Below, piece after piece: positions 22,865 through 47,485 of a DNA stretch of 64,000 nt (the first letter of the stretch is position 1; every line of letters begins with the position of its first letter). The translations under genes and the position numbers were made by a program. Source of the DNA: an uncultured Pelagibacteraceae bacterium (GTDB taxonomy: Bacteria; Pseudomonadota; Alphaproteobacteria; Pelagibacterales; Pelagibacteraceae); NCBI GenBank assembly GCA_902589765.1, contig CACIUF010000001.1, positions 1-64,000 of the forward strand. The letters are read 5' to 3'. The notes under the pieces were generated by a model, which had not been told where the DNA came from, made no database searches, and saw only the letters and a list, made by a program, of their open reading frames with translations.

Positions 22865-22981
22865 TTATTTTTTAAAACGTTTAAAACTTCCTTTGCCTTT
22901 TTTAGGTTTAATAACTCGAGGTTTATACTTTTTAGTAAATAATTCTTTTGCAAACTTATTTTTTTTTGATTTCGTAGCCAT
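22865..22981 (-). CDS. arfA: ArfA-like alternative ribosome-rescue factor, 38 aa (not in ORF track)
   Basis: MATKSKKNKFAKELFTKKYKPRVIKPKKGKGSFKRFKK; resembles the E. coli ArfA core [19 protein letters not shown]. Confidence 0.55.
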   Translation of the reverse strand: MATKSKKNKFAKELFTKKYKPRVIKPKKGKGSFKRFKK

Positions 22982-23519
22982 TTTTATTACTTATAATAAA
23001 ATTCTCATCACCAAAAACATCTAAAATTTTTTTTCTTAATCTGTAAATATGGGTTTCAACTGTATGAGTTTCTAATTGTGACTGATATCTCCAAACTTTT
23101 GATTGTAATTCATCAATATTGACCGATTTTGCAGATTTAAAGAGATACATTATGGAACTAATTTCTTTTTCGGTAAGTTTAAGTTTATTTTTTTCAAAAA
23201 ACATTTCTCGCGAATTTAGATTAAATTTATAATTCCCAATTAAAATTTCTGATTTTTCATGAAAACTTTTTTTAATAAATTCAATATTTATTTTCTCTAA
23301 TAATTTGAAAATTGATATTGGAAATTTATCAAAAATGATTTGATTATTTAATCCTGGTATCACTTTTCGTGTAAGAATTAAACTATTTGATTTTAAATTA
23401 AGCTTAGGCAGTTGCTCCTTACTAATTCTTTCAAAATTAAGATTTATATCCTTTTTAATTTCTGTAAAAATTTTATATAATCCATCAAACTCATAAATGA
23501 TAAGATTGTAATTATTCAT
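22956..23519 (-). CDS. OmpR/PhoB-type winged-helix transcriptional regulator with degenerate N-terminal domain
   Basis: KLTEKEISSIMYLFKSAKSVNIDELQSKVWRYQSQLETHTVETHIYRLRKKI; ATG at 23519 preferred over TTG at 23531. Confidence 0.82.
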   Translation of the reverse strand: MNNYNLIIYEFDGLYKIFTEIKKDINLNFERISKEQLPKLNLKSNSLILTRKVIPGLNNQIIFDKFPISIFKLLEKINIEFIKKSFHEKSEILIGNYKFNLNSREMFFEKNKLKLTEKEISSIMYLFKSAKSVNIDELQSKVWRYQSQLETHTVETHIYRLRKKILDVFGDENFIISNKNGYEIKKK

Positions 23520-23532
23520 ATAGATATACAAT

Positions 23533-26222: not shown

Positions 26223-26423
26223 ATTAATTACTCCTTTGTAATTGTTTGTTATTAATAATAAACGTGAGCAAAATAACATTTTATGACCAAAAAACCCCTT
26301 AATTGCCTTTTTTTTGATATTTATTTAAATGATGTTGCAAATATATCACACAAAAAATATGAATTTTTTTAATTATTTTAGATTTAAATGTATATTTATT
26401 CTTATTTCATCTAAAAACTGAAA

Positions 26424-30007: not shown

Positions 30008-30996
30008 TTCTAAAAACATTTGAATTAAATAAAATCAAAAACAATACGATTTTCCACTTATTATACGGCAAAAATGAGGGTTTAAAATCAGAATGCATTA
30101 ACGAAATAATAAAAAGATATAAAGGAAAAATTTTTAAATATGATGAAAAACAGATCAAAGATGAAATTGAACCTTTTTATGAAAATGTTTTATCTGGCTC
30201 ATTATTCGATAATAATAAGGTCATAATAATTAACAGAGCTACAGATAAAATTTATGAAATTATTCTGAACTTGATTGATCGGGATTTAGATAATATTAAA
30301 ATAATTTTAAATGCAGATCTATTAGAAACAAAATCAAAGCTAAGATCTCTTTTTGAAAAAAATAAAGATTTAATTTGCATTCCTACATATCAAGATAATA
30401 ATGAAACTCTATCAAGATTGACTGTATTAATTTTAAAAAAGGAAAACATCTCAATTTCACAACAAAATATAAATTTGATAGTTGAGAAATGTAATGGTGA
30501 TAGACAGAATTTACAGAATGAACTTAATAAAATAAAAAATTATGCTTCTAATAAAAAAAAAATTTCAACCGAAGAAATTGTAAAATTAATTAATTTAAGT
30601 GAAAATTATGGATTGTCAGAACTTATTGATAATTGTTTGGCCCAAAATAAAAATAAAACCATAAACATACTAAATGAAAATAATTATAATCCTGAAGATA
30701 GTATTATAATTTTAAGAACCTTCTTGGCCAAAGCTAAAAAAATTTTAAAACTTGCAACTCAATTAGAACGAAATAATGATATTAATAAAACAATTAATTC
30801 AGCTAAACCACCTATCTTTTGGAAAGATAAAGAAATTGTTAAAATACAACTTAGTAAATGGAAACTTAAAGAAATAAAAAAACTCATAAATAGTATAAGT
30901 GATGTAGAACTAGAGATAAAAAAAAATTATAACAATTCTTTATGTATAACTACCAACTTTATTATAGAAAAAAGCAATTCTAAAATTAATAATTAG
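30004..30996 (+). CDS. holA: DNA polymerase III subunit delta
   Basis: FHLLYGKNEGL, LLETKSKLRSLFEK; downstream of lptE. Confidence 0.85.
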   Translation: MILKTFELNKIKNNTIFHLLYGKNEGLKSECINEIIKRYKGKIFKYDEKQIKDEIEPFYENVLSGSLFDNNKVIIINRATDKIYEIILNLIDRDLDNIKIILNADLLETKSKLRSLFEKNKDLICIPTYQDNNETLSRLTVLILKKENISISQQNINLIVEKCNGDRQNLQNELNKIKNYASNKKKISTEEIVKLINLSENYGLSELIDNCLAQNKNKTINILNENNYNPEDSIIILRTFLAKAKKILKLATQLERNNDINKTINSAKPPIFWKDKEIVKIQLSKWKLKEIKKLINSISDVELEIKKNYNNSLCITTNFIIEKSNSKINN

Positions 30997-31825
30997 ATTT
31001 AATAATATCAATTATTTTATTTAATTGCTCAACATCGTGATAAGCAAAAGTAATTGTTCCTTTGTTTTTTTTATTATTTTTAATTGATACATTTAAACCG
31101 ATTTTATCAGATATTGATTTTTCAAGATTCTGAATATTGGGATCATTACGTTTAATGTATAAACTTTTTTTCCTTTTAAAAATTTTAACAAAATTTTCTG
31201 ATTGACGAACAGATAGTTTTTTTTCGATAATTTTTTGTGCAACAAAGCTAGCATTTTCAAGACCAACTAATATTTTGGCGTGACCAGAAGATAATTTTTT
31301 GGTTTGAATTAAATCTAATACATCGCTAGGTAGAGTTAATATCCTAAGACAATTTGTAATATAACTTCTACTTTTCCCAATAAATTTTGAAACTTTTTCT
31401 TGATCATAAGAAAAATCATTAATTAGTCTTTGGTAACCTTGAGCTTCCTCCAGAGGGTTAAGATCATTTCTTTGAACATTTTCGACGATCGCAAATTCTA
31501 AAGATTTCAAATCATCTGCTTTAGTAACAACAACAGGCACCTCATGAAGACCAGCTTTTTGAGCTGCAAGCCATCGTCTTTCTCCAGCAATGATCTCGTA
31601 CTTCGAATTTTCATCTGATTTTCGAACTATAATTGGTTGAATAATTCCCCTTTCATTTATTGATTTTTTTAAATCATTCAAACTATCTTCATCGAAAATT
31701 TTTCTAGGTTGAAATTTATTTGGATAAAGATCACTAATTGGTAGTTTGTTAGTTGCTTCCACTGTCTTAGTTTCGCCTATTAATGATGATAATCCTCTGC
31801 CCAATCCTTTTTTGATCTTATTCAT
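30986..31825 (-). CDS. parB: Chromosome partitioning protein ParB
   Basis: KKGLGRGLSSLIG, PRKIFDEDSLNDLKKSI, GERRWLAAQKAGL, NVQRNDLNPLEEA. Confidence 0.97.
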   Translation of the reverse strand: MNKIKKGLGRGLSSLIGETKTVEATNKLPISDLYPNKFQPRKIFDEDSLNDLKKSINERGIIQPIIVRKSDENSKYEIIAGERRWLAAQKAGLHEVPVVVTKADDLKSLEFAIVENVQRNDLNPLEEAQGYQRLINDFSYDQEKVSKFIGKSRSYITNCLRILTLPSDVLDLIQTKKLSSGHAKILVGLENASFVAQKIIEKKLSVRQSENFVKIFKRKKSLYIKRNDPNIQNLEKSISDKIGLNVSIKNNKKNKGTITFAYHDVEQLNKIIDIIKSNY

Positions 31826-32619
31826 TAAGCTGCACTCCCAATTTGGTTCTCTTGGTTTATAAATTCATCTGTAAAACTATAGTAAGATTTACTACCGGGG
31901 CAATTTTTATCATAGATTAAAACAGGTACTCCATGCGAAGGGGCTTCAGATAATCTTACGTTACGTGGTATTACTGTTTGATATACCTTTTCCTTAAAAT
32001 AATTTCTTGCCTCTTGTTCAACTTGTGAAGATAATTTATTTCTCCGGTCATACATTGTTAAAAGTATCCCTTGAATTTCTAAATTAGGGTTCAAATTAAC
32101 TTTAATGCGATCGATTGTTTTCATTAATTGAGTTAAGCCTTCTAGTGCAAAAAATTCTGTCTGAAGAGGAACCAAAAGAGAATTTGAGCAAACAAGAGCC
32201 ATTACAGTCAATAAACTCAAAGATGGTGGACAATCTATAAGTATATAATCATATAATCCTCCAGAATCATTTAAATATGCGGTTAATTTTAATTTTAGAA
32301 TAAATGCACGATCGCTATCCCCAGCTGTTTCGACCTCTAAACCAGATAAATCGACATTTGATGTTATCAGATCTAGATTATCAAATTTAGTTTTTTTAAT
32401 TACCTCTGAAATAGACTTAGTCCCATTTAAGATACCATAAATAGTTTCATCAGACCTTTCAATATTAGATAAACCTAGACCAGTTGTTGCGTTTCCTTGA
32501 GGGTCTAAATCAATTATTAAAATTTTTTTTCCCTGCTGTGTTAATGCAGATGCAAGATTTATCACTGTTGTTGTTTTGCCAACTCCACCCTTCTGATTTA
32601 TAATAGAAATAATTTTCAT
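31825..32619 (-). CDS. parA: Chromosome partitioning ATPase ParA
   Basis: INQKGGVGKTTTVINLA deviant Walker A. Confidence 0.97.
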   Translation of the reverse strand: MKIISIINQKGGVGKTTTVINLASALTQQGKKILIIDLDPQGNATTGLGLSNIERSDETIYGILNGTKSISEVIKKTKFDNLDLITSNVDLSGLEVETAGDSDRAFILKLKLTAYLNDSGGLYDYILIDCPPSLSLLTVMALVCSNSLLVPLQTEFFALEGLTQLMKTIDRIKVNLNPNLEIQGILLTMYDRRNKLSSQVEQEARNYFKEKVYQTVIPRNVRLSEAPSHGVPVLIYDKNCPGSKSYYSFTDEFINQENQIGSAA

Positions 32620-33263
32620 TAAATTTTTTTTTCCATATTTTTAATATTCAATAAAAATGAATCCTCACTTGTTACACTTTTTTTTTCCTCATAATCTAAG
32701 TTCCAAATTTTAAGAGTATCATTTAAAATTTTTCTTCCACTTTTACCCATAAATAAAATAATATTTTTATAATTCCGAAAATTTTTTTGCACTAAATCAA
32801 GAATTATAGGCATTGGTTTAAAAGCTCTGGTCATAATCGTTCCAGTTTCAATATTTTTAATTTTAAAAATATCTTTTTGTATAATTTCTGTGTTAAGCTC
32901 TAATTTTTCTGAGACATCTTTTAAGAAAGCACATTTGTGATAACTTTTTTCGTAAAGTTGGACTTTCATGCTGTTTTTTAATTTCTTCATTAAGACTGCA
33001 ATTATTATACCGGGCATTCCACCCCCAGATCCTAAATCTGAAGTTGTATTACTATTTAAATCAACAAAATCAATTATTTGCGCTGAATCAATTATATGTC
33101 TTTGTCTTATAGCACCTTTTTCAGATTTTTTTTTACTAATTATGTTAATTTCCTTATTTTTTTTTTGAATCATGCTTATTAAGCTTTCAAGATCATTACA
33201 AGTTTCACGTGAAACATTAAATCTATTAATTTGAGAGTAATTTTTAGAAATTATCGAATCCAT
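32619..33263 (-). CDS. rsmG: 16S rRNA (guanine527-N7)-methyltransferase
   Basis: DLGSGGGMPGIIIAV; downstream of mnmG. Confidence 0.95.
   Translation of the reverse strand: MDSIISKNYSQINRFNVSRETCNDLESLISMIQKKNKEINIISKKKSEKGAIRQRHIIDSAQIIDFVDLNSNTTSDLGSGGGMPGIIIAVLMKKLKNSMKVQLYEKSYHKCAFLKDVSEKLELNTEIIQKDIFKIKNIETGTIMTRAFKPMPIILDLVQKNFRNYKNIILFMGKSGRKILNDTLKIWNLDYEEKKSVTSEDSFLLNIKNMEKKI
33201..33216. promoter_or_regulatory. parS: parS centromere site
   Basis: AGTTTCACGTGAAACA, 15/16 match to TGTTTCACGTGAAACA; encodes the VSRET residues of RsmG. Confidence 0.93.
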
Positions 33264-35134
33264 TAAGCTATATGCTTAATAGACTTTCTTTTAACGTGTG
33301 ACAACAAAATATATACAGCAGCTGGGGTAATTCCGTCAATCCGAAGTGCTTGGCCCATAGTTTTTGGTCTTATTTCCTTAAATTTTGCTTTTACTTCATT
33401 TGATAAACCAGAAAATTGGTCATAATCTATATTATCTGGAATAAGTAAATTCTCATCTCTTTTAAAAGCTAAGATATCTGCATTTTGCTTTTTTAAATAA
33501 CCCCTATAATGTGAGTTAATTTCTATTTGCTCATCAATCTCTAACCCAAAATCCTTAATTTCAGGCCAAATACTCCTTATTTTGCTCATATTAACGTCTT
33601 TTTGAGTTAAAATTTCATCTGCAGACCTTAAAATACCATCTTTAGCAATTTTTATCCCATGCCTATCTGCTTTTGTTGGAGATATACTTAAACTAGCCAT
33701 TTGAAACGATATTTCACTCATTTTTGCAAATTTATCCTCAAATTTTGATTTTCTTGCATCAGAAACTAGGCCAATTTTTATACCTTTATTCGTGAGCCTT
33801 AGATCGGCATTATCTGCTCTTAAACTTAACCTGTACTCAGCTCTTGAAGTAAACATTCTATAAGGCTCAGCTACACCTTTTGTAACTAAATCATCTATCA
33901 TAACCCCTATATAGGCGTCTGACCTATCAAGAATGAACGGCTCTTTACCCATAAATGACAATGCTGCATTTACACCCGCTACAAGACCTTGAGCTGCAGC
34001 CTCCTCATATCCTGTGGTTCCATTAATCTGACCAGCTAAAAATAGGTTCTTAATTTTTTTTGTCTCAAGAGTTAAAAAAAGCTCCCTAGGGTCTATATAG
34101 TCATATTCTATAGCATATCCTGGTCTGATTATTCTTACATTCTCTAAACCATTGATATTATTGAGTATTTCAGCTTGTACTACCTCAGGTAGAGAAGTTG
34201 ATATACCATTTGGGTAAATTGTATGGTCATGTAACCCTTCAGGCTCTAAAAATATTTGATGTCTCGTCTTGTCAGCAAACTTAACTATTTTATCTTCAAT
34301 TGATGGACAATATCTAGGACCTACTCCTTGAATGCTCCCAGAATACATCGCACTCTTGGATAAATTCTTTTCAATAATCTTATGCACTTTTTCATTTGTG
34401 TAAGTCATAGAACACGACACTTGTTTATTCGAAGTTGATTTCGTTAAGAAGGAAAAGAAATAAGGATTTTCATCAGCTGCTTGTTTTTCCAAATTTTTGA
34501 AATTTATTGTCCTGGCATCCAGTCTTGGTGGAGTACCTGTTTTTAATCTCCCTATTTTGAATTTATATTTTTCTAATTGTTCACTCAAACCTGTACTAGG
34601 TTTTTCATTATATCTTCCAGCAGGCGTGCGCTCATCACCTATATGTATTAATCCATTTAAAAATGTGCCAGTTGTGAGTATTATTTTATTACAATTAACC
34701 TTGTTACCTTTTAATGTTAAAAAGCCATTTATTGTATTATTAGTAAAAATAAACTTAATTACAGGATCTGAAAAAATGCTTAAATTACAATAGTTTACAA
34801 GTTTTTCTTGCATAAATTTCTTATATAATGATCTGTCAGATTGAGTTCTTGGACCTCTCACAGCTGGTCCTCTGCTTCTATTAAGTAACCTAAATTGTAT
34901 TCCTGATTTATCTGCAATTACTCCCATGACACCATCTAATGCATCTATTTCCCTAACTAAATGACCTTTACCCAAGCCACCAATTGCAGGATTACATGAC
35001 ATTTCACCAATAGTACTTTTATCATGAGTAAATAGGGCAGTATTTACGCCTAGACGTGCTGAGGCAGCTGCTGCCTCACAACCAGCATGACCACCTCCAA
35101 TTACAACGACATCAAATGAAAATTCATTTTTCAT
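33263..35134 (-). CDS. mnmG: tRNA uridine-5-carboxymethylaminomethyl modification protein MnmG (GidA)
   Basis: [20 protein letters not shown]; full-length. Confidence 0.98.
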
Positions 35135-35173
35135 GATGTAAATTTATAGTTGAAAAAAAATTTTACAAGGTTC

Positions 35174-36505
35174 TTATTTTCCAATGCAAAAATCATTGAA
35201 AATGCTACCTAATACTTCCTCCACATCAACCTTTCCAACGATCATACCTAAATGTCTGGTAGCTAACCTCAAATCTTCTGCGGCTTTATCAAAATCTTTT
35301 TTATCATTTTTTTTTAAAAAATTAGTTAAATTATCTGAACACTGAACTAAGTGTTGTCTATGTCTTTCTCTAGTAATTAATATATCTTCATTTATAATAA
35401 ACTTTGTTTTTAACCTATCTTTAATTTTTGAAATTAATTTATCTAAATTTAAATTTTCCTTTATTGAAATTAAAACATGGTCTAACTTTGTTACCTCACT
35501 GCCTAATTCACCGTCAATAAGATCTGACTTATTAACAACTAAAATTGCATTGTCTTTTAATAGATCACTCAAAAATCCGCTTAAATCCACACTTTTCGCG
35601 TCTACTACAACTAATTTCAAGTCAGCATTTTCTGCTCTATCTAACGATAACTTTATGCCTTTTTTCTCTATTTCATCTTTAGAGTTTCTGATGCCTGCTG
35701 TATCTGAAATAATAACTGGATAACCATCAATATTTAAATGTGTTTCAATTACATCCCTTGTTGTTCCTGCAATTTCAGAGACTATTGCTACTTCTTTATT
35801 CGATAAACTATTCAATAAAGAAGATTTCCCAGCATTAGTTGGACCAACAATAGCAATCTTAAAACCTTCACGTATTATTTGACCTACTTTTTGATCATCT
35901 AAAATTTTTTTAATTTGCTCTAAAACATTAGCTGAATCCCTTTTAATTTGTTGAACATTTTCATCAGGTAAATCCTCTTCTGGAAAATCTATTTTTGCCT
36001 CAATAAAAGATAAAATTTTTAATAACTTTTCTCTTAAACCATTAAATTTTTCAGCTGATTTACCTTTCATAATTTTTACCGCTTGTAATCTTTGGATTTC
36101 AGTTTCTGCTGAAATCAGATCAGCTATACTTTCAGCTTTTAACAAATTAATTTTACCATTTTGAAAAGCTATTTTTGTAAATTCTCCAGGTTCAGCTAAT
36201 CTAAAATTTTCTATCTTAGACAATTCGTTTTGTAGAGCTAAAACGATTGCTTTCCCTCCATGGACATGAATCTCAGCCATATCTTCGCCTGTATAGCTCT
36301 CAGGGCCTGGAAACCAGATAATCATGCCCTCATCAATAAGTTCAGAAGTGTTAATACTATTTATTTTTCGAAGCGATGCGACCCTGGGAGAGGGGAGAGC
36401 CTTTCCAGTAAGCAGAGTTATTGCTTTAGACGCTTCTGATCCTGAAATTCTAATAATAGCAACTCCAGATATTCCTGGTCCCGATGATAGAGCGAAGATT
36501 GTCAT
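35174..36505 (-). CDS. mnmE: tRNA modification GTPase MnmE (TrmE)
   Basis: GPTNAGKSSLLNSL, GTTRDVIE, C-terminal FNDFCIGK. Confidence 0.98.
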   Translation of the reverse strand: MTIFALSSGPGISGVAIIRISGSEASKAITLLTGKALPSPRVASLRKINSINTSELIDEGMIIWFPGPESYTGEDMAEIHVHGGKAIVLALQNELSKIENFRLAEPGEFTKIAFQNGKINLLKAESIADLISAETEIQRLQAVKIMKGKSAEKFNGLREKLLKILSFIEAKIDFPEEDLPDENVQQIKRDSANVLEQIKKILDDQKVGQIIREGFKIAIVGPTNAGKSSLLNSLSNKEVAIVSEIAGTTRDVIETHLNIDGYPVIISDTAGIRNSKDEIEKKGIKLSLDRAENADLKLVVVDAKSVDLSGFLSDLLKDNAILVVNKSDLIDGELGSEVTKLDHVLISIKENLNLDKLISKIKDRLKTKFIINEDILITRERHRQHLVQCSDNLTNFLKKNDKKDFDKAAEDLRLATRHLGMIVGKVDVEEVLGSIFNDFCIGK

Positions 36506-36550
36506 ATATGAATTATAATGACTTAATCTAAATATTAAAATTAAATATTT

Positions 36551-38233
36551 TTATTTAACTATTTGCTCTAATGCCTCAAAAAAATTCTTACTATAATCTT
36601 GATTATCAAATAATGGACTTTTTAATGCATTTGTAAAAACAAATTTTCTTAAATTTGTGTACTCATCATGATTATCTGATAAATTGATTATTTTTTGCAC
36701 ATAATCGTTTTCATCTTTAGCAATCAGTTGTTCCATGCCCAAATTTTTATTTATCGATTCACCACATCTTGAATTAAAATTATATCCTGCCATAGTAATT
36801 ACTGGTACACCCATCCATATTGCTTCGAAAGATGTTGTTACTCCATTATAAGGAAATGTGTCTAAAGCGATGTCTATTTCGTTATAAGCATTAAGATGAT
36901 TTTCAAACACCTCTTCTCTCTCACTAAATCTGATTGAATCTAAAACTTCATTTTTTTTGAATAACTCTTTAATTCTATCTTGAGCATGTTGTCGCTTGGA
37001 TGTTTTCAAAACAAGTTTTGAATTACTAATTTTTTTTAAAATATTTGACCAACAAGAAACTACATCTGAGTTAATTTTATCAAAACTATTAAAAGAACCA
37101 AAAGTAAAAAATTTTTTCTTAAAAAATGGTGGAGAATTTTCTTTTCGTTCAAAATCAAATCCACAATGAGTATTCCAAATTTTTGGTAAATATATTACTT
37201 TTTCGGTGTAAAATTTCTCCTCTTCTCGGTTAATTAGATTTAGATCTGATATGATGTAGTCCATATTTTTTAATCCAGTAGTATTACAATACCCCATCCA
37301 AATTATTTGCTTTTTAGCCATTCTACTTTTAAATAATTCAATACGATGTGTTGAAGTATAGCCCATTAAATCAACTAAGATATCCAAGTTTAGCTCTCTT
37401 ACTTGATTTATGGCATTAACATTATTTAGTTGAGAAATATTAATTGTTTTATCCACTAAATTCTTAAAGTTGTTTGTCAACTTATCTTCTTTTGAATTAC
37501 TTAATACTAAAATAATTTCAAATTTACTTTTTTCATAATTTGAAAGTATTGTTTTTAAAAAGTAAGTTATTGAATGACCTGAAAGAATATCTGAGGACAA
37601 AAAACCTATTCTAATTTTTGAATTAGGTTCCTTAGAAATTTCAACTAATTGGTTATGTGGAATTTCTTTAAGATTTTGATCTAGAAACTTGCCAAAATTG
37701 AAAAAATCAGATTGTTTCCAATCTTTATTAAAACATTGCCAGTAACCATAATTACACAAATCATTGGAATTAAACTTTTTTGCTTCAATAAGTCTACTAA
37801 AGTGAAGTATTAATTTTTTTGGATCATTTAACCTACGATAAACCATTGCCATCGCCAAATTAATTGGCCTGTGATTAATACAAAATTTTTCAGATAATTT
37901 ATAAAAATTAATTATCTCGCTGAAGTTAAATTCATAATTTTTTTCTAAATCTATTAACAGAACACTTGTAGTAATAAAGTTTGCCAGACAATCTATTGAC
38001 TGAATTGTATTTTTTTCCTTCAAAAAACCCGATTTAAAATCATTTATGGCTATAGATAATAAATTCTTATTTTTATTATCGTTAGAAATTCTACTTAAGC
38101 CCAATAAATTACATAAAAAGGATGATCTTTCCTCCTCATTAGTTTTTGATGAAATTTCAAATACAACCTTAGAATATTCTTTTTGTTTAAATAGCTCAGT
38201 TGTTTCTAATTCTAATTTTTGGATAAGGACCAT
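36551..38233 (-). CDS. O-GlcNAc transferase (GT41/SPINDLY-like) family protein, copy A
   Basis: IRIGFLSSDILSGHSITYF, IDIALDTFPYNGVTTSFEAIWMGVPVITMAGYNFNSRCGES. Confidence 0.85.
   Translation of the reverse strand: MVLIQKLELETTELFKQKEYSKVVFEISSKTNEEERSSFLCNLLGLSRISNDNKNKNLLSIAINDFKSGFLKEKNTIQSIDCLANFITTSVLLIDLEKNYEFNFSEIINFYKLSEKFCINHRPINLAMAMVYRRLNDPKKLILHFSRLIEAKKFNSNDLCNYGYWQCFNKDWKQSDFFNFGKFLDQNLKEIPHNQLVEISKEPNSKIRIGFLSSDILSGHSITYFLKTILSNYEKSKFEIILVLSNSKEDKLTNNFKNLVDKTINISQLNNVNAINQVRELNLDILVDLMGYTSTHRIELFKSRMAKKQIIWMGYCNTTGLKNMDYIISDLNLINREEEKFYTEKVIYLPKIWNTHCGFDFERKENSPPFFKKKFFTFGSFNSFDKINSDVVSCWSNILKKISNSKLVLKTSKRQHAQDRIKELFKKNEVLDSIRFSEREEVFENHLNAYNEIDIALDTFPYNGVTTSFEAIWMGVPVITMAGYNFNSRCGESINKNLGMEQLIAKDENDYVQKIINLSDNHDEYTNLRKFVFTNALKSPLFDNQDYSKNFFEALEQIVK
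36692..36859. repeat. 168-bp identical tract shared by the two GT41 paralogs (copy A)
   Basis: Base-by-base identical to 38451..38618, offset 1759. Confidence 0.93.
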
Positions 38234-38309
38234 TGGTAAATTTAAGCGAGATACCTCATAATATTAAATCAATACCATATAATAAATTAAATATTTAACA
38301 TAAATTAAA

Positions 38310-39989
38310 TCACTTAATTATTTTTCTTAATGCATCATAAAAATTTTCTGCAAATCTTTTTGCATTAAATAGGGGACTTTTAATTGTATTGGTAAATATA
38401 GATTTTCTTAGATTGATGTATTTTTCTTTGTCATTTGCAAAATTAATTGCTTTTTGCACATAATCGTTTTCATCTTTAGCAATCAGTTGTTCCATGCCCA
38501 AATTTTTATTTATCGATTCACCACATCTTGAATTAAAATTATATCCTGCCATAGTAATTACTGGTACACCCATCCATATTGCTTCGAAAGATGTTGTTAC
38601 TCCATTATAAGGAAATGTATCTAAGGCAATATCTATTTTTTTATATAAATTAAGATGCTCTTTTTTATCATCAAAACTTGTATGAAAAATAATAGACTGC
38701 AGAATAAATTTTTCTTTAAAAGATTTTTTAATTCTAATTAATTGATGTTTATCGTTAGGACATTTTATTATCAATTTAGAATTATCAATATTTTTTAATA
38801 TTTTTGACCAGCAATCAATAACATCTTCATTAATCTTAGATGGATTATTAAATGATCCAAAAGTAATATAATCATTTTTTATAAATGGAGGGGGGTTTTC
38901 TATTCTCTCAAATTCGAACCCACAATGGGTATTCCAAATTTCCGGCAGATATAAAATTTGTTCTGCATATAAATCTTTTTCATTATCATAGATTAGATTC
39001 GGGTCTGTAATAATGTAATCCATATTTTTTAATCCAGTAGTATTACAATAGCCCATCCATATTACCTGTTTTTTTGCAATTCTATTTTTAAACAAGGTGA
39101 TTCTATTTCTCGATGTGTAACCCATAACATCTAACATTATGTCTAAATTTAATTCCCTAATTTTATTCAAAGCACTTAAATCGTTTAATTGATTAATATC
39201 TATTGTTCTAAAAACTAAATTAGAAATCTCAGTCGAGATAGAATTAGGATCTTTTTGATTTGAAATTAAATAAATTTCAATTTCATCTCTATTATAATGC
39301 AATAAAATGGTCTTTAAAAAAAAGGTTATAGAATGTCCTGTCTTTAAATCTGCAGACAAAATGCCTAATTTAATCTTTTCATTTTTTTTATTAGATAATT
39401 CTATTATTTGGTTATCGGAATATTTATTTAGATTTTTTTCAACAAACTTACCGTAATTAAAAAAATTCTCTTGAGACCAACGCTTATCATAACACCTCCA
39501 AAAACCATAATTACACAAATCATTTGATATAAAATCTCCAGATTTAATTACTTTTTCAAGATGATAAACCATTCCTTTAAAATCATTTAGTCTTGAATAA
39601 ACTGTAGTCATTGCGATATTAATTGGTCTTTTATTTTGGAAAGTTTCTGGAGACGCTTTATAAAAATTTTTTATCTCATCAAAATCTACATTTGTATTTT
39701 CAAAATCACTCAAAATTACACTTGCAAGCACAAAATTTATAAGCCCATTAAGACTATTTTCACTGGTTAATTCTTTGAGATATCCTTTTTTGAAATCACC
39801 AACAGCTAACTCTACCTGATCTTTATTTTTTTTATTTAGAGATATTCGGCTTATACCTAGTAAAACAAATAATCCAGCATTTCTCTCATCTTCTTTAGAT
39901 TTTGTAGTAATTTCAAAAATTATTTCGGAGAATTTTTTTTCTTTAAATAGGCTTTGTAATTCAAGTTCTAGGTTTTGAACTGATACCAT
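38310..39989 (-). CDS. O-GlcNAc transferase (GT41/SPINDLY-like) family protein, copy B
   Basis: Full-length paralog of 36551..38233; same catalytic motif block. Confidence 0.85.
   Translation of the reverse strand: MVSVQNLELELQSLFKEKKFSEIIFEITTKSKEDERNAGLFVLLGISRISLNKKNKDQVELAVGDFKKGYLKELTSENSLNGLINFVLASVILSDFENTNVDFDEIKNFYKASPETFQNKRPINIAMTTVYSRLNDFKGMVYHLEKVIKSGDFISNDLCNYGFWRCYDKRWSQENFFNYGKFVEKNLNKYSDNQIIELSNKKNEKIKLGILSADLKTGHSITFFLKTILLHYNRDEIEIYLISNQKDPNSISTEISNLVFRTIDINQLNDLSALNKIRELNLDIMLDVMGYTSRNRITLFKNRIAKKQVIWMGYCNTTGLKNMDYIITDPNLIYDNEKDLYAEQILYLPEIWNTHCGFEFERIENPPPFIKNDYITFGSFNNPSKINEDVIDCWSKILKNIDNSKLIIKCPNDKHQLIRIKKSFKEKFILQSIIFHTSFDDKKEHLNLYKKIDIALDTFPYNGVTTSFEAIWMGVPVITMAGYNFNSRCGESINKNLGMEQLIAKDENDYVQKAINFANDKEKYINLRKSIFTNTIKSPLFNAKRFAENFYDALRKIIK
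38451..38618. repeat. 168-bp identical tract shared by the two GT41 paralogs (copy B)
   Basis: Base-by-base identical to 36692..36859. Confidence 0.93.
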
Positions 39990-39997
39990 TAAGGGGA

Positions 39998-41266
39998 CTA
40001 TGCCGGTTTGTTCATTGAATTAAAAAACTCAGCATTATTTTTAGTATCTTTTAATTTGGAATTGATAAATTCAATCGCATCCATTGTGCCCATTGGAGCA
40101 ATAATTCTTCTTAAAACATTCATTTTTTGAAGATCATTTTTATCGAACAATAATTCTTCTCTTCTTGTACCTGATTTTGTAATATCAATAGCTGGATAAA
40201 TTCTTTTATCAGCAATTTTTCTGTCAAGAACTGTTTCACTATTTCCAGTTCCTTTAAATTCCTCAAAAATTACCTCATCCATCCTACTTCCCGTATCAAT
40301 TAATGCTGTAGAAATAATTGTCAATGATCCTCCCTCTTCAATATTTCTTGCAGCACCAAAAAATCGCTTTGGTCTTTGAAGAGCATTCGCATCAACACCA
40401 CCTGTCAAAACCTTTCCGGAACTTGGAATGACCGCATTGTAAGCTCGCCCTAATCTTGTTATCGAATCTAAAAGTATAACAACATCTTTTTTATGTTCAG
40501 TTAACCTTTTTGCTTTCTCTATTACCATCTCAGCAACAGCAACATGGCGTTGTGCGGGTTCATCAAATGTTGAACTAATCACTTCACCTTTTACAGTTCT
40601 TTGCATATCAGTTACTTCTTCAGGTCTCTCATCAATTAGCAAAACAATCAAATAACATTCAGGATAATTTTTTGCTATTGAGTTGGCTATACTTTGTAAA
40701 ATCATAGTTTTACCGGCCTTAGGAGGTGAGATAATAATTGATCTTTGACCTTTTCCAATAGGACTTACTAGATCAATAAGTCTTGGTGTTAAATCTTGTT
40801 TTTTATCAGGTTTTACCTGCTCCACTTCCATAACAAGTTGCTTGTCTGGATATAGAGGAGTTAAATTGTCAAATGCAATTTTGTGTCTAGACTTGTCAGG
40901 TTCTTCAAAATTAATTTTACTAACTTGTAATAATGCAAAGTATCTTTCTCCCTCTTTCGGAGCTCTTACAGGCCCTTCTATAGTGTCACCGGTCCTTAAA
41001 CCAAATTTTCTGATTTGACTTGGGCTAACGTATATATCATCTGGACCTGGCAAATAGTTAGACTCCATTGCTCTAAGAAAACCGAATCCATCTTGAAGCA
41101 ATTGAAGTACACCGGCACCGGTTATTTCCTCTTTTTCAGCAACTTTTTTTAAAATTGCAAAGAGTATTTCTTGTTTTCTTAATGTGCTTGCATTTTCTAT
41201 ACCTAGCTCTTCAGCTTGAGCAATAAGTTGTTCAGACGATTTTAGTTTTAGTTCTTGAATGTTCAT
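39998..41266 (-). CDS. rho: Transcription termination factor Rho
   Basis: [37 protein letters not shown]. Confidence 0.98.
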
Positions 41267-41328
41267 GAGTAAATTATTAAGGACTTAATAATTTTTATAA
41301 TATATATGTTAATCCAATTAATTCAACC

Positions 41329-41763
41329 CTAGATAGGCTTAAATATCACAACAAATATGATTAAAATAAGCAATAATGTGGGTATTTCATTGATATATCT
41401 AAAGTATTTGTGAGAATGCTTATTTATATCTAATTTAAATTGCCCCAGAATTCTTCCTAGGTAAAAATGGTACAAGGTTAAGATAACCACAAAAATTAAT
41501 TTTAAGATCATCCATTTTTGGCCTAACTGCCCAAAGCCTATTTCATGTATTAATATTAATCCAAATATCCAGGATAATGTCATTGCTGGTGTCATGATGT
41601 AAAAAAAAAGTTTTTTTTCCATAACTTTAAATACTTCTGAAACTAATGGTTTATCATCATTTTGTGAATGATAGACAAAGATTCTTGGAAGATACAAAAG
41701 GCCCGCCATCCAGGAAATTACTGCTATCAAATGAAGAGATTTAAAAAGCAAATAAGTATTCAT
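41329..41763 (-). CDS. hemJ: Protoporphyrinogen oxidase HemJ
   Basis: FKSLHLIAVISWMAGLLYLPRIFVYH; next to hemH. Confidence 0.93.
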   Translation of the reverse strand: MNTYLLFKSLHLIAVISWMAGLLYLPRIFVYHSQNDDKPLVSEVFKVMEKKLFFYIMTPAMTLSWIFGLILIHEIGFGQLGQKWMILKLIFVVILTLYHFYLGRILGQFKLDINKHSHKYFRYINEIPTLLLILIIFVVIFKPI

Positions 41764-41766
41764 AAA

Positions 41767-42765
41767 TTACAAATTTTTTTGAATTAAAGATTTTAGTAAA
41801 GCTATATGATCGTCACTATCATTTAAACAAGGCACCATATCGAAATTTTCTCCACCAGACTCTAGAAAACTTTCTTTACCTTGAATGAGAATTTCTTCCA
41901 AAGTCTCAACGCAATCTGAGGAAAAACCAGGACATATTGCAAGAACATTCTTTTTGCCTTCTTTGGGCAATTTTTCTAGTGTCTTATCTGTGTAAGGTTC
42001 AAGCCATTTTTGAGGCCCAAATCGTGACTGAAAAGTTGTTTTAAGCTCTATAGAATTAAACTTTTCTGAGATAAGTCTTGTAGTCTTTTGACAGTAGCAA
42101 TGATACGGATCTCCTTTATCAAAATATTTTTGGGGGATACCATGATAAGATGCCAAAATTAAATCTGGTTTCCAGTTTATTTCTTTTATCTTTTTGTTTA
42201 ATGAATTAACCAAGGCTCCTATATACAAGGGATGTGACTCATAATGTGGTATTATCTTTATAGATGGTTGCCATCTCATTTTCATCAAAGTTCTATAAAC
42301 TTCATCACAAACTGTAGCTGTTGTTGCTGCAGCATATTGAGGATACAAAGGCAATATAATCAAATTTTCACAACCTTTTTCATGTAAATGTTCTATTTTA
42401 CTTTTAATACTTGGGTTTCCATACCTCATAGCATAATCAACAATTACATCATTTTCGGGTATTGAGTTTGACAATTTTTTAGCTTGTTGTTGTGTATAAT
42501 AGAGAAGAGGAGATATGTTTTCATTTTCCATCCATATTTCCTTATAAGCTTTTGCGGTTTTAGAAGGTCTTAAATTTAATATAAAGACATTTAATATAAT
42601 CTGCCAAATTATAGGGTTAACTTCTATTACCCTTCTGTCAGATAAAAATTCTTTTAAATATTTTCTGATATCAAGCCAACTTGTTGAATCTGGAGTTCCC
42701 AAATTTATTATTAAAACTCCTGTTTTGCCGAAATTAACAGGTGGGTGGTTTAATTCTTGTTTCAT
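41767..42765 (-). CDS. hemH: Ferrochelatase
   Basis: GVLIINLGTPDS, ASYHGIPQKYFDKGDPYHCYCQKT. Confidence 0.97.
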   Translation of the reverse strand: MKQELNHPPVNFGKTGVLIINLGTPDSTSWLDIRKYLKEFLSDRRVIEVNPIIWQIILNVFILNLRPSKTAKAYKEIWMENENISPLLYYTQQQAKKLSNSIPENDVIVDYAMRYGNPSIKSKIEHLHEKGCENLIILPLYPQYAAATTATVCDEVYRTLMKMRWQPSIKIIPHYESHPLYIGALVNSLNKKIKEINWKPDLILASYHGIPQKYFDKGDPYHCYCQKTTRLISEKFNSIELKTTFQSRFGPQKWLEPYTDKTLEKLPKEGKKNVLAICPGFSSDCVETLEEILIQGKESFLESGGENFDMVPCLNDSDDHIALLKSLIQKNL

Positions 42766-43766
42766 CGGTAGTTCTTTACAGTTTTGACCAAATAATCCAT
42801 CATATTAGGATCGGTTTCAGGTAAAATCCCATGGCCTAAATTAAATATATATGGATGATCCTTAAAAATATCCAGATACTTATTTGCTTCTTTTTTAAGA
42901 TTGTCTTTATCGGTGAGTAAGACTTTTGGATCCATACCACCTTGTACAGGAATTTTTATTTCTTTTTCAATTTTTTTAGGGTCAACTTCATAATCTATAC
43001 AAATTGCGTCTGGTTTTACAATTTCACAGTATTTTTTATAATTTTTTATGTTTCTTGGAAAACAAATAACCGGAACATTTAAAGATTTAGTAAATTCAAC
43101 TAAAGAACAGGTTGGATTGTAGATATAAAAATCATAATCCTTTTCCTCTAATAATCCAGCCCAACTGTCAAAAATTTGTATTATTTCTGCGCCATTATTA
43201 ATTTGATTTTTAATATGAATTTTTAAAAATTTATCAATTATCACCAGAGTTTTTTCAATTATAGAAAAATCTTTAAAAAAATTCTCTTTGAGTTTTATTT
43301 TTGGAGATTGCTTATTAAGAATATAAACAAGTAGTGTCCAAGGAGCTCCAACAAAACCTATGGTAGACTTATTTAATGTTATATCGTTTTTTTTTACCAA
43401 ATTAATAGCTTTATAAACAGGATTAACTCTTTCAGTAAAATCATTTTCTGTAACCTTGGATATTTGATCAAGACTTAAATCACCAAGAATAGGACCAAAA
43501 TTTTTTTTAAATTCTACCTTTTGTTTCAGACCATAAGGTAAAATCAATATATCAGAAAAGATTATAGCAGCATCTAGGTCAAATCTTTTTAGAGGTTGTA
43601 ACGTTATTTCAGCTGATAAACTGGAATTTAAACATAATTTCATAAAATCAGTATTTCTCTTTCTAATTTCTCTAAATTCTGGCAAGTATCTTCCAGCCTG
43701 TCTCATAATCCATATGGGATTTAGATCTGTTTTTTTATCTTTAATAACTTTTTTAATGTCAGACAT
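42762..43766 (-). CDS. hemE: Uroporphyrinogen decarboxylase
   Basis: PIWIMRQAGRYLPEFREIR; NLGHGILPETDP. Confidence 0.98.
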   Translation of the reverse strand: MSDIKKVIKDKKTDLNPIWIMRQAGRYLPEFREIRKRNTDFMKLCLNSSLSAEITLQPLKRFDLDAAIIFSDILILPYGLKQKVEFKKNFGPILGDLSLDQISKVTENDFTERVNPVYKAINLVKKNDITLNKSTIGFVGAPWTLLVYILNKQSPKIKLKENFFKDFSIIEKTLVIIDKFLKIHIKNQINNGAEIIQIFDSWAGLLEEKDYDFYIYNPTCSLVEFTKSLNVPVICFPRNIKNYKKYCEIVKPDAICIDYEVDPKKIEKEIKIPVQGGMDPKVLLTDKDNLKKEANKYLDIFKDHPYIFNLGHGILPETDPNMMDYLVKTVKNYR

Positions 43767-44047
43767 ATTAATAATTAAATCTATTTAATAATATTTGTAG
43801 TATGAACTGTGGAATATGTGGATTAAATTTTATATACATTTTATTAACTGGTTATTAACATTTAAAGTTAAATTTTTGTTATATATATAAGTAATATTGA
43901 AGCTTATTGCCAATATTACAATTTAATGAAAAACTTTATACAGATGTTTAATAATGTTAATAAAAGCTATGTTTTACAGCATAAATTTAAAATTTATAAA
44001 ATTAATCAACTTTGTTTAATTAAAACAAAACTATTAACACTTTATAC
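43767..44047. other. oriC: Candidate chromosomal replication origin (oriC)
   Basis: Largest non-coding gap in the window; hemE/ppsR(RP001-like) synteny; AT-rich; cluster of degenerate DnaA-box-like 9-mers; genes diverge on both sides; parABS about 10 kb away. Confidence 0.72.
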
Positions 44048-44872
44048 ATGAGTAATACTTATCAAATTTATCTTATATCAGATTCAACAGGCGAAACATT
44101 AGATAGAATTTTTACTGCAATTAAAGCTCAATTTAAAAACATAAATTACAAAATACACACCTATGCTTTTACGAGAACAGAGAACCAAATCTTGAAAATC
44201 TTATCTAATGCTCAAGAAAATCCAAACTCTATAATTCTATATTCAATCGTAGACAGTGGACTCGCGAAATACCTTGCAAAAAATAGTGAAGAAAAGAAAA
44301 TACCTTGTTTTGGTATCCTTGGGGATTTAATTTTAAGCTTTTCAAAATTACTTAATCAAAAAGCTTCTCACCAACCTAGCGGTCAATACACATTAAATGA
44401 TGAGTATTATAAAAGGATTGAAGCAATTCAGTTCACTATGAACCATGATGATGGAAATTTAGTTAAAGATATTAAAAAATCAGATATTATTTTACTGGGT
44501 GTTAGTAGAACGAGCAAAACCCCAACCTCAATCTATTTGGCAAATAAAGGGTTTAAAATATCTAATATTCCTTTAGTAAATGAAAATTCTATACCAGATA
44601 TTTTAAAAGAAGAACCAAGTATTAACTGCATTGTCGGATTAAGCACCGAACCAGAGAGATTAGCTGACATAAGAAAAAACAGAATGAATTCATTGAAAGA
44701 GTCTCAAAATAAATCTTATACAGACTTATCTAAAATCAAAAAAGAAGTTGATGACGCCAAGAATACTTTTAAAAAATATAGATGGCCGATGATAGATGTG
44801 ACTAGAAAATCGGTCGAAGAAACAGCTGCTTCAATTATAAAAATATACGAAATATATAAAAATAATGGTTAA
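44048..44872 (+). CDS. ppsR: Pyruvate,phosphate dikinase / PEP synthase regulatory protein (DUF299)
   Basis: YLISDSTGETLDRI; ILLGVSRTSKTPTSIYLANKG. Confidence 0.93.
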   Translation: MSNTYQIYLISDSTGETLDRIFTAIKAQFKNINYKIHTYAFTRTENQILKILSNAQENPNSIILYSIVDSGLAKYLAKNSEEKKIPCFGILGDLILSFSKLLNQKASHQPSGQYTLNDEYYKRIEAIQFTMNHDDGNLVKDIKKSDIILLGVSRTSKTPTSIYLANKGFKISNIPLVNENSIPDILKEEPSINCIVGLSTEPERLADIRKNRMNSLKESQNKSYTDLSKIKKEVDDAKNTFKKYRWPMIDVTRKSVEETAASIIKIYEIYKNNG

Positions 44873-45449
44873 AATTATCCTTGCCTCCAAAAGCAAAGTA
44901 AGAAAGCAAATTTTGGATAATAATAATATATTCACGGAGGTACAAAATTCTAATTTAGATGAAGATATTGTTAAAGAAAGTTTGCTCAAAGAAAAAGCAT
45001 CTCCCGAATTTATATCAAAAAATTTAGCTGAACTAAAAGCAAACAAGGTTAGTCAAAAAAACCAAGGTTTTTTAGTTATAGGCGCTGATAGCGTAATAGA
45101 TTTAGATGAGGAATTAATATCTAAACCTAAAAATAGAGATCAAGCTTTAGAAATTTTAAAAAAGCTTAATGGAAAAAAACACAATCTCATTAGTTCAGTT
45201 TGTATCTCTCAAAATGGTGCCATGATTTGGAATTACACTGATAAAGCAACTTTAACAATGAGGAAATTTAGCTTGGATGAACTGAGAGATTATTTATCAA
45301 AAATTTCGGATGAAGCACTATATGCGTACAATGTTTATCAAATTGAAGGGGAGGGTAGAAATTTATTCTTAAATATTGAAGGTGATGAAGATACTATTAT
45401 GGGGCTTCCAATTAAAAAAATTAAAAAATATCTTGAAAATTTTAAGTAA
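44865..45449 (+). CDS. maf: Maf-like nucleotide pyrophosphatase
   Basis: KIILASKSKVRKQIL; VIGADSVIDLDEELISKP. Confidence 0.92.
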   Translation: MVKIILASKSKVRKQILDNNNIFTEVQNSNLDEDIVKESLLKEKASPEFISKNLAELKANKVSQKNQGFLVIGADSVIDLDEELISKPKNRDQALEILKKLNGKKHNLISSVCISQNGAMIWNYTDKATLTMRKFSLDELRDYLSKISDEALYAYNVYQIEGEGRNLFLNIEGDEDTIMGLPIKKIKKYLENFK

Positions 45450-45461
45450 AAGAAAATCAAT

Positions 45462-46256
45462 ATGAAAAAATATGTAGTGATTGGTAACCCCATTGAACAT
45501 TCATTGTCTCCTTTATTACATAATCATTGGATTAAAGAAAAAAATTTGAAAGCTATTTATGATAAAAAAAAATCAGAAAAAGATGAATTGAAAGAAATAA
45601 TTTCTAGTATTAAAAATAAAAATATTGCAGGAGCCAATGTGACAATACCGTTTAAAAATGAGGTTATCAAATATTTAGATAAACTAAAACCTGAGGCTGA
45701 GAAAACCCAATCTGTAAATACTATTTATTTAGAGGACAATTTTTTAATTGGTGCAAACACAGACATTAAAGGTTTCGAGTTGGCCATGAATGATACTGGG
45801 TTCGATGTTTCTCAAAAAAGTATTTTGATACTTGGAGCAGGTGGAGTAGTTCCATCTATAATTTTTGCTTTGAAAAGAATGCAAGCCTCAGAGATTACAG
45901 TAAGCAATAGAACAAAAACTAATGCTGAAGGTTTAAAAGATATGTTTGGAGATTTAAAAATAATTGAATGGGGGCAATCATCCTCTTTTGATTTAGTCAT
46001 TAATGCTACTAGTTTAGGTTTAAAGCCTGATGATAAAATCGATTTTGATTACTCAAAGGTTGGAAAAAACAAATTTTTTTATGATGTAATTTATAACCCT
46101 GAAGAAACTAATTTTTTAAAAATAGCTAAAGAATTAAATCATAAAACTGAAAATGGTTTAAAAATGTTTTTATATCAGGCGGCTGAAGCATTCAAGGTTT
46201 GGCATGGTGTTAACCCTGATATTAATGAAAGCACATTTGGTTTATTTAAAAAATGA
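45462..46256 (+). CDS. aroE: Shikimate dehydrogenase
   Basis: VIGNPIEHSLSPLLHN; GANVTIPFKNEV; GAGGVVPSIIFAL. Confidence 0.96.
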   Translation: MKKYVVIGNPIEHSLSPLLHNHWIKEKNLKAIYDKKKSEKDELKEIISSIKNKNIAGANVTIPFKNEVIKYLDKLKPEAEKTQSVNTIYLEDNFLIGANTDIKGFELAMNDTGFDVSQKSILILGAGGVVPSIIFALKRMQASEITVSNRTKTNAEGLKDMFGDLKIIEWGQSSSFDLVINATSLGLKPDDKIDFDYSKVGKNKFFYDVIYNPEETNFLKIAKELNHKTENGLKMFLYQAAEAFKVWHGVNPDINESTFGLFKK

Positions 46257-46822
46257 GAAGAATTGCAATAATTGGAGATATTGGATCAGGAAAAAGTTTT
46301 GTAGCTAAAAATTTTGGCTATCCAGTTTTTAATGCAGATAACGAAGTTGGAAAATTATACAAGAAAAGTAAAAAAATCTTTATTAAACTCAATAAAACTT
46401 TACCTAAGTTCATCACTCAATTTCCAATTAAAAAAAAAGAAGTAACAAAAACAATATTGGCAAATAAGAGTAATCTTAGAAAAATTATTAATATTGTTCA
46501 TCCAGAGGTCAGGAAACAGATGAACATTTTTTTAAAGAAAAATAAAAATAGTAAATTAGTTATTTTAGATATTCCATTACTGCTTGAAAATAGAATTAAT
46601 AAAACAAAAGATATTTTGATATATATCCAAGCTAATAGAGCAGAAATCCTGAAAAGATTAAAAAGAAGAGAAAATTTTGACTCAAAAATTTTTAATAAAT
46701 TTAGAAAAATACAACTGTCACTTGACTACAAAAAGAAAAAATCAAATTTTATAATTAAAAATAATTTTTCAGAGAAATCTGTTAAAAAACAAATTAGATA
46801 TATTTTAAAACAAATTAATTAA
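46253..46822 (+). CDS. coaE: Dephospho-CoA kinase
   Basis: IAIIGDIGSGKSFVAKNFG; LDIPLLLENR. Confidence 0.93.
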   Translation: MRRIAIIGDIGSGKSFVAKNFGYPVFNADNEVGKLYKKSKKIFIKLNKTLPKFITQFPIKKKEVTKTILANKSNLRKIINIVHPEVRKQMNIFLKKNKNSKLVILDIPLLLENRINKTKDILIYIQANRAEILKRLKRRENFDSKIFNKFRKIQLSLDYKKKKSNFIIKNNFSEKSVKKQIRYILKQIN

Positions 46823-47485
46823 ATGAAAGAAATAATTTTAGATACAGAAACAACAGGATTGTCTGTTAAAGAAGGTCACCGAATAGTTGAGATTGGATGC
46901 ATAGAACTGGAAAATTTCATTCCCACCAATAATAATTTTCATTGCTATTTAAACCCTGAGAGAAAAGTTTCTGAAAAAGCTTTAGAAACTCATGGTTATA
47001 CTGATGAGTTTTTATCTGATAAAAAAAGATTTAAAGAAATAGCAGATGATTTTTTACTTTATATTAAAGGAAAAAAACTAATTATTCATAATGCTGAATT
47101 TGATTTATCACATTTAAATAACGAATTGAAAATAGCAGGTAAAGATTTAATTAATAACGAAATTGTAGATACTGTTATTTTAGCTAGAGATAAATTTCCA
47201 GGATCATCCAATAGCTTAGACGCTTTATGCAGAAGGTATAGAATAGACAACTCTAAAAGAGAAAAACATACAGCTCTAATCGATTGTGACCTATTATCAA
47301 AAGTTTATATTAATTTAATTGATCAAAAAGAGCCTAAATTGAATTTTAGTAACGATAGCAGCAGTAACAATCAAGTTTTAAAAACAAACATTTCGTATTT
47401 TAAAAAAGTCATTGAACCTAGTGAGACAGAAAAAAGAAATCATGAACAATATTTAAAAATTAATTTGAAGAAAAATTTTTTTTAA
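46823..47485 (+). CDS. dnaQ: DNA polymerase III epsilon subunit
   Basis: EIILDTETTGLSVKEGHRIVEIGCIEL; HNAEFDLSHLN. Confidence 0.96.
   Translation: MKEIILDTETTGLSVKEGHRIVEIGCIELENFIPTNNNFHCYLNPERKVSEKALETHGYTDEFLSDKKRFKEIADDFLLYIKGKKLIIHNAEFDLSHLNNELKIAGKDLINNEIVDTVILARDKFPGSSNSLDALCRRYRIDNSKREKHTALIDCDLLSKVYINLIDQKEPKLNFSNDSSSNNQVLKTNISYFKKVIEPSETEKRNHEQYLKINLKKNFF

Follow-up and report, generated by a model that had tools for sequence, protein, structure and literature searches.

In this work we have asked whether the long non-coding gap between hemE and ppsR in a 64-kb stretch of DNA (the window) from an uncultured Pelagibacteraceae bacterium is the place where replication of its chromosome begins. 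The origins of Caulobacter (Cori) and Rickettsia lie between hemE and a COG1806 gene and carry sites for DnaA, CtrA and IHF (PMC1914354). The window takes up the initial 64 kb of its contig, the genome assembly comprises 954 kb in 51 contigs and is 78% complete, and the nearest named relatives of the genome are single-cell genomes and MAGs of the Pelagibacteraceae (SAR11). Genes were identified with NCBIfam, which assigned HemE, a PpsR-type regulator (PRK05339), Maf, AroE, CoaE, DnaQ, HemH, HemJ and Rho. The locus is made up as follows:

43767..44047, no strand: predicted oriC, 281 bp, 16% GC, with length and sequence kept in relatives and with DnaA-box motifs
42762..43766, minus strand: hemE, left neighbour (TIGR01464, above cut-off)
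44048..44872, plus strand: ppsR (DUF299/COG1806, RP001 family), right neighbour (NF003742, above cut-off)
44865..47485, plus strand: maf-aroE-coaE-dnaQ (NCBIfam)

The preliminary description of this DNA had already interpreted the gap as an origin, and we find it right in substance, with the exception of an IHF detail discussed below. The gap is indeed the largest in the window, being the longest stretch that lacks an open reading frame of at least 90 amino acids (281 bp, the runner-up measuring 194 bp), and transcription diverges from it, the main genes of 30986-43766 all lying on the minus strand and those of 44048-47485 on the plus strand. The hemE/ppsR-maf-aroE-coaE-dnaQ context is backed by the NCBIfam identities, the 9-mers that had been named occur in the gap with the coordinates and motifs given for them, and the argument from synteny agrees with the published Caulobacter and Rickettsia origins (PMC1914354), which have the same flanking genes, hemE and COG1806. 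We consider, with a probability of about 0.93, that the gap is the oriC of the SAR11 (Pelagibacteraceae) chromosome, opened by DnaA and coupled to segregation through parS. Its position, its conservation, its box motifs, the proximity of parS and a coarse polarity of the chromosome are observed; the binding of DnaA, the site of opening and the dynamics as a whole are predictions. We therefore hold the place of the origin with high confidence and its mechanism with moderate confidence.

How constant is this gap among relatives? The same divergent arrangement was found in all 60 same-genus genomes in which both genes were in reach, with a gap of 261-292 bp; the gap measures 272-283 bp in 80 named records and 258-283 bp in genera g7-g10, and its range over the 60 same-genus genomes and 18 from other genera and a second family is 258-292 bp. 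In that second family, f2, it lies between hemE and maf, which takes the place of ppsR (265-280 bp), and in genus g6, where hemE is gone from the locus, rho and ppsR enclose a gap of 353 bp whose boxes are of the same kind. The gap thus survives a change of either neighbour, which is unlike the promoter of one fixed gene. As to the loci themselves, a search for ppsR gave no match in the f2 genomes listed (L181-L185), yet maf-aroE-coaE-dnaQ and the gap stay; in g6 (L191, L192; G124, G121) hemE, hemH and hemJ are all missing from the locus, rho adjoins the gap, and elsewhere only a distant hemE homologue of about 31% identity was found. Identity within the gap is 0.88-0.95 in 18 close relatives, against 0.44-0.68 at the fourfold sites of ppsR; in near relatives it is 0.91-0.93, where the fourfold sites of hemE reach 0.42-0.75. 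Two control gaps, one of them divergent (26280-26423), mostly reach 0.72-0.82 in the same genomes, a comparison that ignores one row (L284) which starts off the gene. Judged by these identities, the gap is under strong constraint. Conservation in orthologous gaps had been proposed as a check on the origin, and its outcome is favourable: neither fourfold sites nor control gaps are as well conserved as the gap, and DnaA-box-like 9-mers are the top unsupervised motifs, at conserved positions.

When one mismatch to TTATNCACA is allowed, the gap holds five matches, against 0.95 in its dinucleotide shuffles (P = 0.0025), and no other stretch of the 64 kb is as dense in them. The exact TTATNCACA is absent from the window's gap, and the window as a whole, with 85 single-mismatch boxes against 103 expected, is not above chance. 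An unsupervised 9-mer search was made over 28 divergent gaps that are mutually at most 75% identical. Its most over-represented word, found without prior input, was TTATTCACA (15 of the 28 gaps, 0.25 expected), which is the exact DnaA box, i.e. the exact TTATNCACA; TTATTAACA came second (22 of 28, 1.9 expected), and TTATNCACA totals 20 over the 28 gaps against 1.0 in shuffles, counts which, as the gaps share ancestry, do not represent independent events. Of these gaps, 26 have a box with no more than one mismatch close to the hemE end, where 4.9 would be expected, and 15 have one close to the right end, where 1.7 would be; among 18 gaps from other genera the numbers are 12 and 13, respectively. 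With the pattern TTATN[AC]ACA, the hemE/ppsR gap is the densest cluster in the sampled parts of the complete relatives G012 and G130, and is not the densest in those of G128. A DnaA-dependent oriC is expected to hold a group of DnaA boxes within AT-rich intergenic DNA, as this gap does. The individual elements are:

43794..43804, plus strand: possible DnaA-trio TTTGTAGTATG beside box 1, TAG being read as 3'-GAT-5'; weakly supported by the single genome
43808..43816, minus strand: predicted DnaA box 1, TATTCCACA, which is TTATTCACA in many relatives
43817..43825, minus strand: predicted DnaA box 2, TAATCCACA, one mismatch, directly abutting box 1
43840..43860, plus strand: TTTATTAACTGGTTATTAACA, which holds the DnaA-like box TTATTAACA (43852-43860) and TTAA-N7-TTAA
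43936..43944, plus strand: DnaA-like box TTATACAGA, which is TTATACACA in relative L004
43955..43963, minus strand: DnaA-like box TTATTAACA, the best-conserved element of the gap
43971..43978, plus strand: GTTTTACA element, conserved in relatives
44031..44039, plus strand: right-end DnaA-like box CTATTAACA, separated by 8 nt from the ppsR start codon

The tandem TGTGGAATA-TGTGGATTA of the window is a clade variant, near relatives having TGTGAAATA and wider relatives TGTGAATAA, an exact box. Near the position of 43840-43860 some lineages have TTATCCACA or TTATTCACA, and conservation is highest for TGTTAATAA at 43955-43963, where identity over 43956-43964 is 0.97 in 80 relatives. Most lineages have a box 5-8 nt before the right-hand gene; depending on the lineage it reads TTATTAACA, TTATCAACA, TTTTCCACA or TATCCACA, and the changes fall mostly within the box consensus.

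Could the gap be merely a divergent promoter or operator for hemE and ppsR, and the 9-mers the sites of a regulator? Both genes diverge from the gap, some promoter function is near certain, and ppsR could be under the control of the right-end box, which precedes its start codon by 8 nt. However, the gap stays when rho replaces hemE or maf replaces ppsR, it is more conserved than the divergent control gap, and its leading motifs are DnaA boxes, so we regard a promoter without an origin as improbable.

Further evidence for an origin comes from the partition system, the elements of which in the window are:

33202..33215, no strand: parS, exact GTTTCACGTGAAAC, at a distance of 10.7 kb from the gap; the genome yielded no other exact copy
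30986..32619, minus strand: parB and parA, for chromosome partitioning (the ParB domain scores above the TIGR00180 cut-off; ParA was identified by similarity alone)

This perfect parS had been missed by the preliminary description. Of 12 genomes tested, 11 have exactly one exact parS; ten of these are complete, and their parS is separated from the gap by 7-20 kb. We also observed that 36551-39989, between rho and mnmE, holds two tandem paralogues of 560 and 559 amino acids, glycosyltransferase/OGT-like by eye, with a near-identical C-terminal stretch that suggests recent duplication or gene conversion; this pair may explain why the distance from gap to parS is longer here than in relatives (10.7 kb against about 7 kb). 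Because of the fragmented state of our own genome (51 contigs, 78% complete), skew and gene orientation were studied in three complete relatives, sampled in 20-kb stretches. In all three, the genes of both arms are directed away from the gap (plus fraction 0.59-0.62 versus 0.27-0.37). The switch of orientation and GC skew gives best origin offsets of -40 to +60 kb from the gap, whose own score differs from the best by about 2% at most. This accords with the proposal that the skew minimum should fall at the gap, at the resolution of about 60 kb on either side that this coarse polarity allows, with parS 7-20 kb away; in G128 an offset of +240 kb is slightly better than the gap on gene orientation. 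Most of the GC skew is explained by gene orientation (t = 22.7, against 2.5 for the chromosome arm); its resolution for the origin is therefore no better than tens of kb, and we rejected skew as a precise locator.

In many bacteria oriC sits beside dnaA. Is it possible that the true origin lies elsewhere nearby, for instance at dnaA, about 63 kb away (60-65 kb from the gap in same-genus complete genomes)? The orientation data are compatible with a shift of tens of kb, but an offset of -60 kb scores below a zero offset in G012 and G130, parS is closer to the gap, and no box cluster was found around dnaA in ten complete genomes, each locus having at most two TTATN[AC]ACA matches. We rejected the dnaA-adjacent origin for want of such a cluster and consider any nearby alternative to the gap very improbable. 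That the gap is a neutral AT-rich spacer has next to no probability: such words are common by chance at 16% GC, as the 85 single-mismatch boxes of the window illustrate, but the window's gap alone gives P = 0.0025, the 28 gaps hold 20 exact boxes against 1.0 expected, the length is near-fixed in a genome with almost no spacers, and identity far above that of synonymous sites contradicts neutrality. As for the terminus, a search with an E. coli-like pattern located no dif site, matches being scattered and about as frequent as those of a control.

We take the gap to be the SAR11 form of a known origin type. It shares with the Cori of Caulobacter crescentus the neighbours hemE and COG1806, a single AT-rich gap and DnaA boxes, and with the oriC of Rickettsia prowazekii (between RP885, hemE, and RP001) the neighbours, the DnaA boxes and the AT content (82.6% there, 84% here). 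However, it is shorter (about 281 bp, against about 404 bp in C. crescentus and 384 bp in R. prowazekii), and neither the CtrA nor the IHF sites predicted in Rickettsia are supported in it. A CtrA-like TTAA-N7-TTAA, missed by the preliminary description, does occur at 43844-43858, and this pattern is modestly more frequent than in shuffles (18 against 8.1, sd 2.8), an excess for which the tandem TTATTAAC motif may account. The complete relative G012 has no CtrA orthologue, which agrees with the literature, where Pelagibacter is described as lacking ctrA (PMC2877005), and on this ground we rejected control by CtrA. G012 has four PF00486 (winged-helix) proteins: one, which is PhoB, reaches at most 133 bits where listed on the CtrA model NF045991 (cut-off 350), an OmpR-like one only 120 bits, another best matches sortase-system/CreB response regulators, and the fourth, receiver-less and scanned via its homologue in the window, matched no family. 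That homologue, at 22956-23531, is a PF00486 protein without a recognised receiver domain, and a similar gene is found in complete relatives (L197 in G012, L201 in G121).

The IHF-like site of the preliminary description did not stand: it does not match WATCAN5WTR, and the part of the gap in which it lies is among the most variable (identity 0.56-0.66). This consensus, a feature of the Caulobacter/Rickettsia type of origin, occurs 0 times in the window's gap and 8 times in same-genus relatives, against 10.0 expected. IHF sites are thus not enriched, and the suggestion was rejected. Each complete genome has three HU/IHF-family genes. GANTC is nearly absent, with one occurrence in the 28 gaps.

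Where might such an origin open? Published basal unwinding systems (BUS) combine a single DnaA box or a pair of them with a spacer and three or more NAN triplets, 3'-GAT-5' being preferred (PMC8287927). The hemE end of the window reads TTTGTAGTATG-AAC-box-box, and part of the relatives likewise have tandem boxes by TAG-type triplets there, as in Bacillus subtilis. In the 60 nt closest to hemE, TAGTA is over-represented (26 over the 28 gaps, against an expected 4.2; 14 against 3.4 in other genera). In contrast to B. subtilis, the triplet runs of the window are short and irregular, and under a strict test runs near a box occur in 14 of 28 same-genus gaps, against 2.4 in shuffles, and in other genera in 2 of 18, against 2.2, where there is no enrichment. 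We lean slightly towards a BUS-type opening at the hemE end. DnaA would bind the boxes at the hemE end (43808-43825), in the centre (43852-43860, 43936-43963) and at the right end (44031-44039); its oligomer would open the very AT-rich DNA, probably starting beside the tandem hemE-end boxes, and helicase loading would then give two forks, while ParB, bound to the one parS at a distance of 10.7 kb, would move the new origins apart. Perhaps the SAR11 oriC is a minimal one of about 280 bp, free of CtrA and IHF, at which DnaA reads a shifted box dialect (TTATTAACA beside TTATTCACA) and opens a BUS next to hemE, so that the timing of initiation would have to use a control other than the circuit of Caulobacter; we put this forward tentatively, as a rather doubtful proposal.

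SAR11 are among the most abundant bacteria on Earth. We found no description of a SAR11 origin sequence in the open-access papers searched, although a computed prediction (e.g. in DoriC) may already exist. With an exact origin, growth rates become readable from metagenome coverage, and replicating plasmids gain a defined element in a clade that has few genetic tools; the gap also tells which parts of an alphaproteobacterial origin outlast genome streamlining and the loss of CtrA. Lastly, one record titled as a Flavobacteriaceae MAG (L255) has a SAR11 hemE/ppsR locus, probably as a result of mis-binning.
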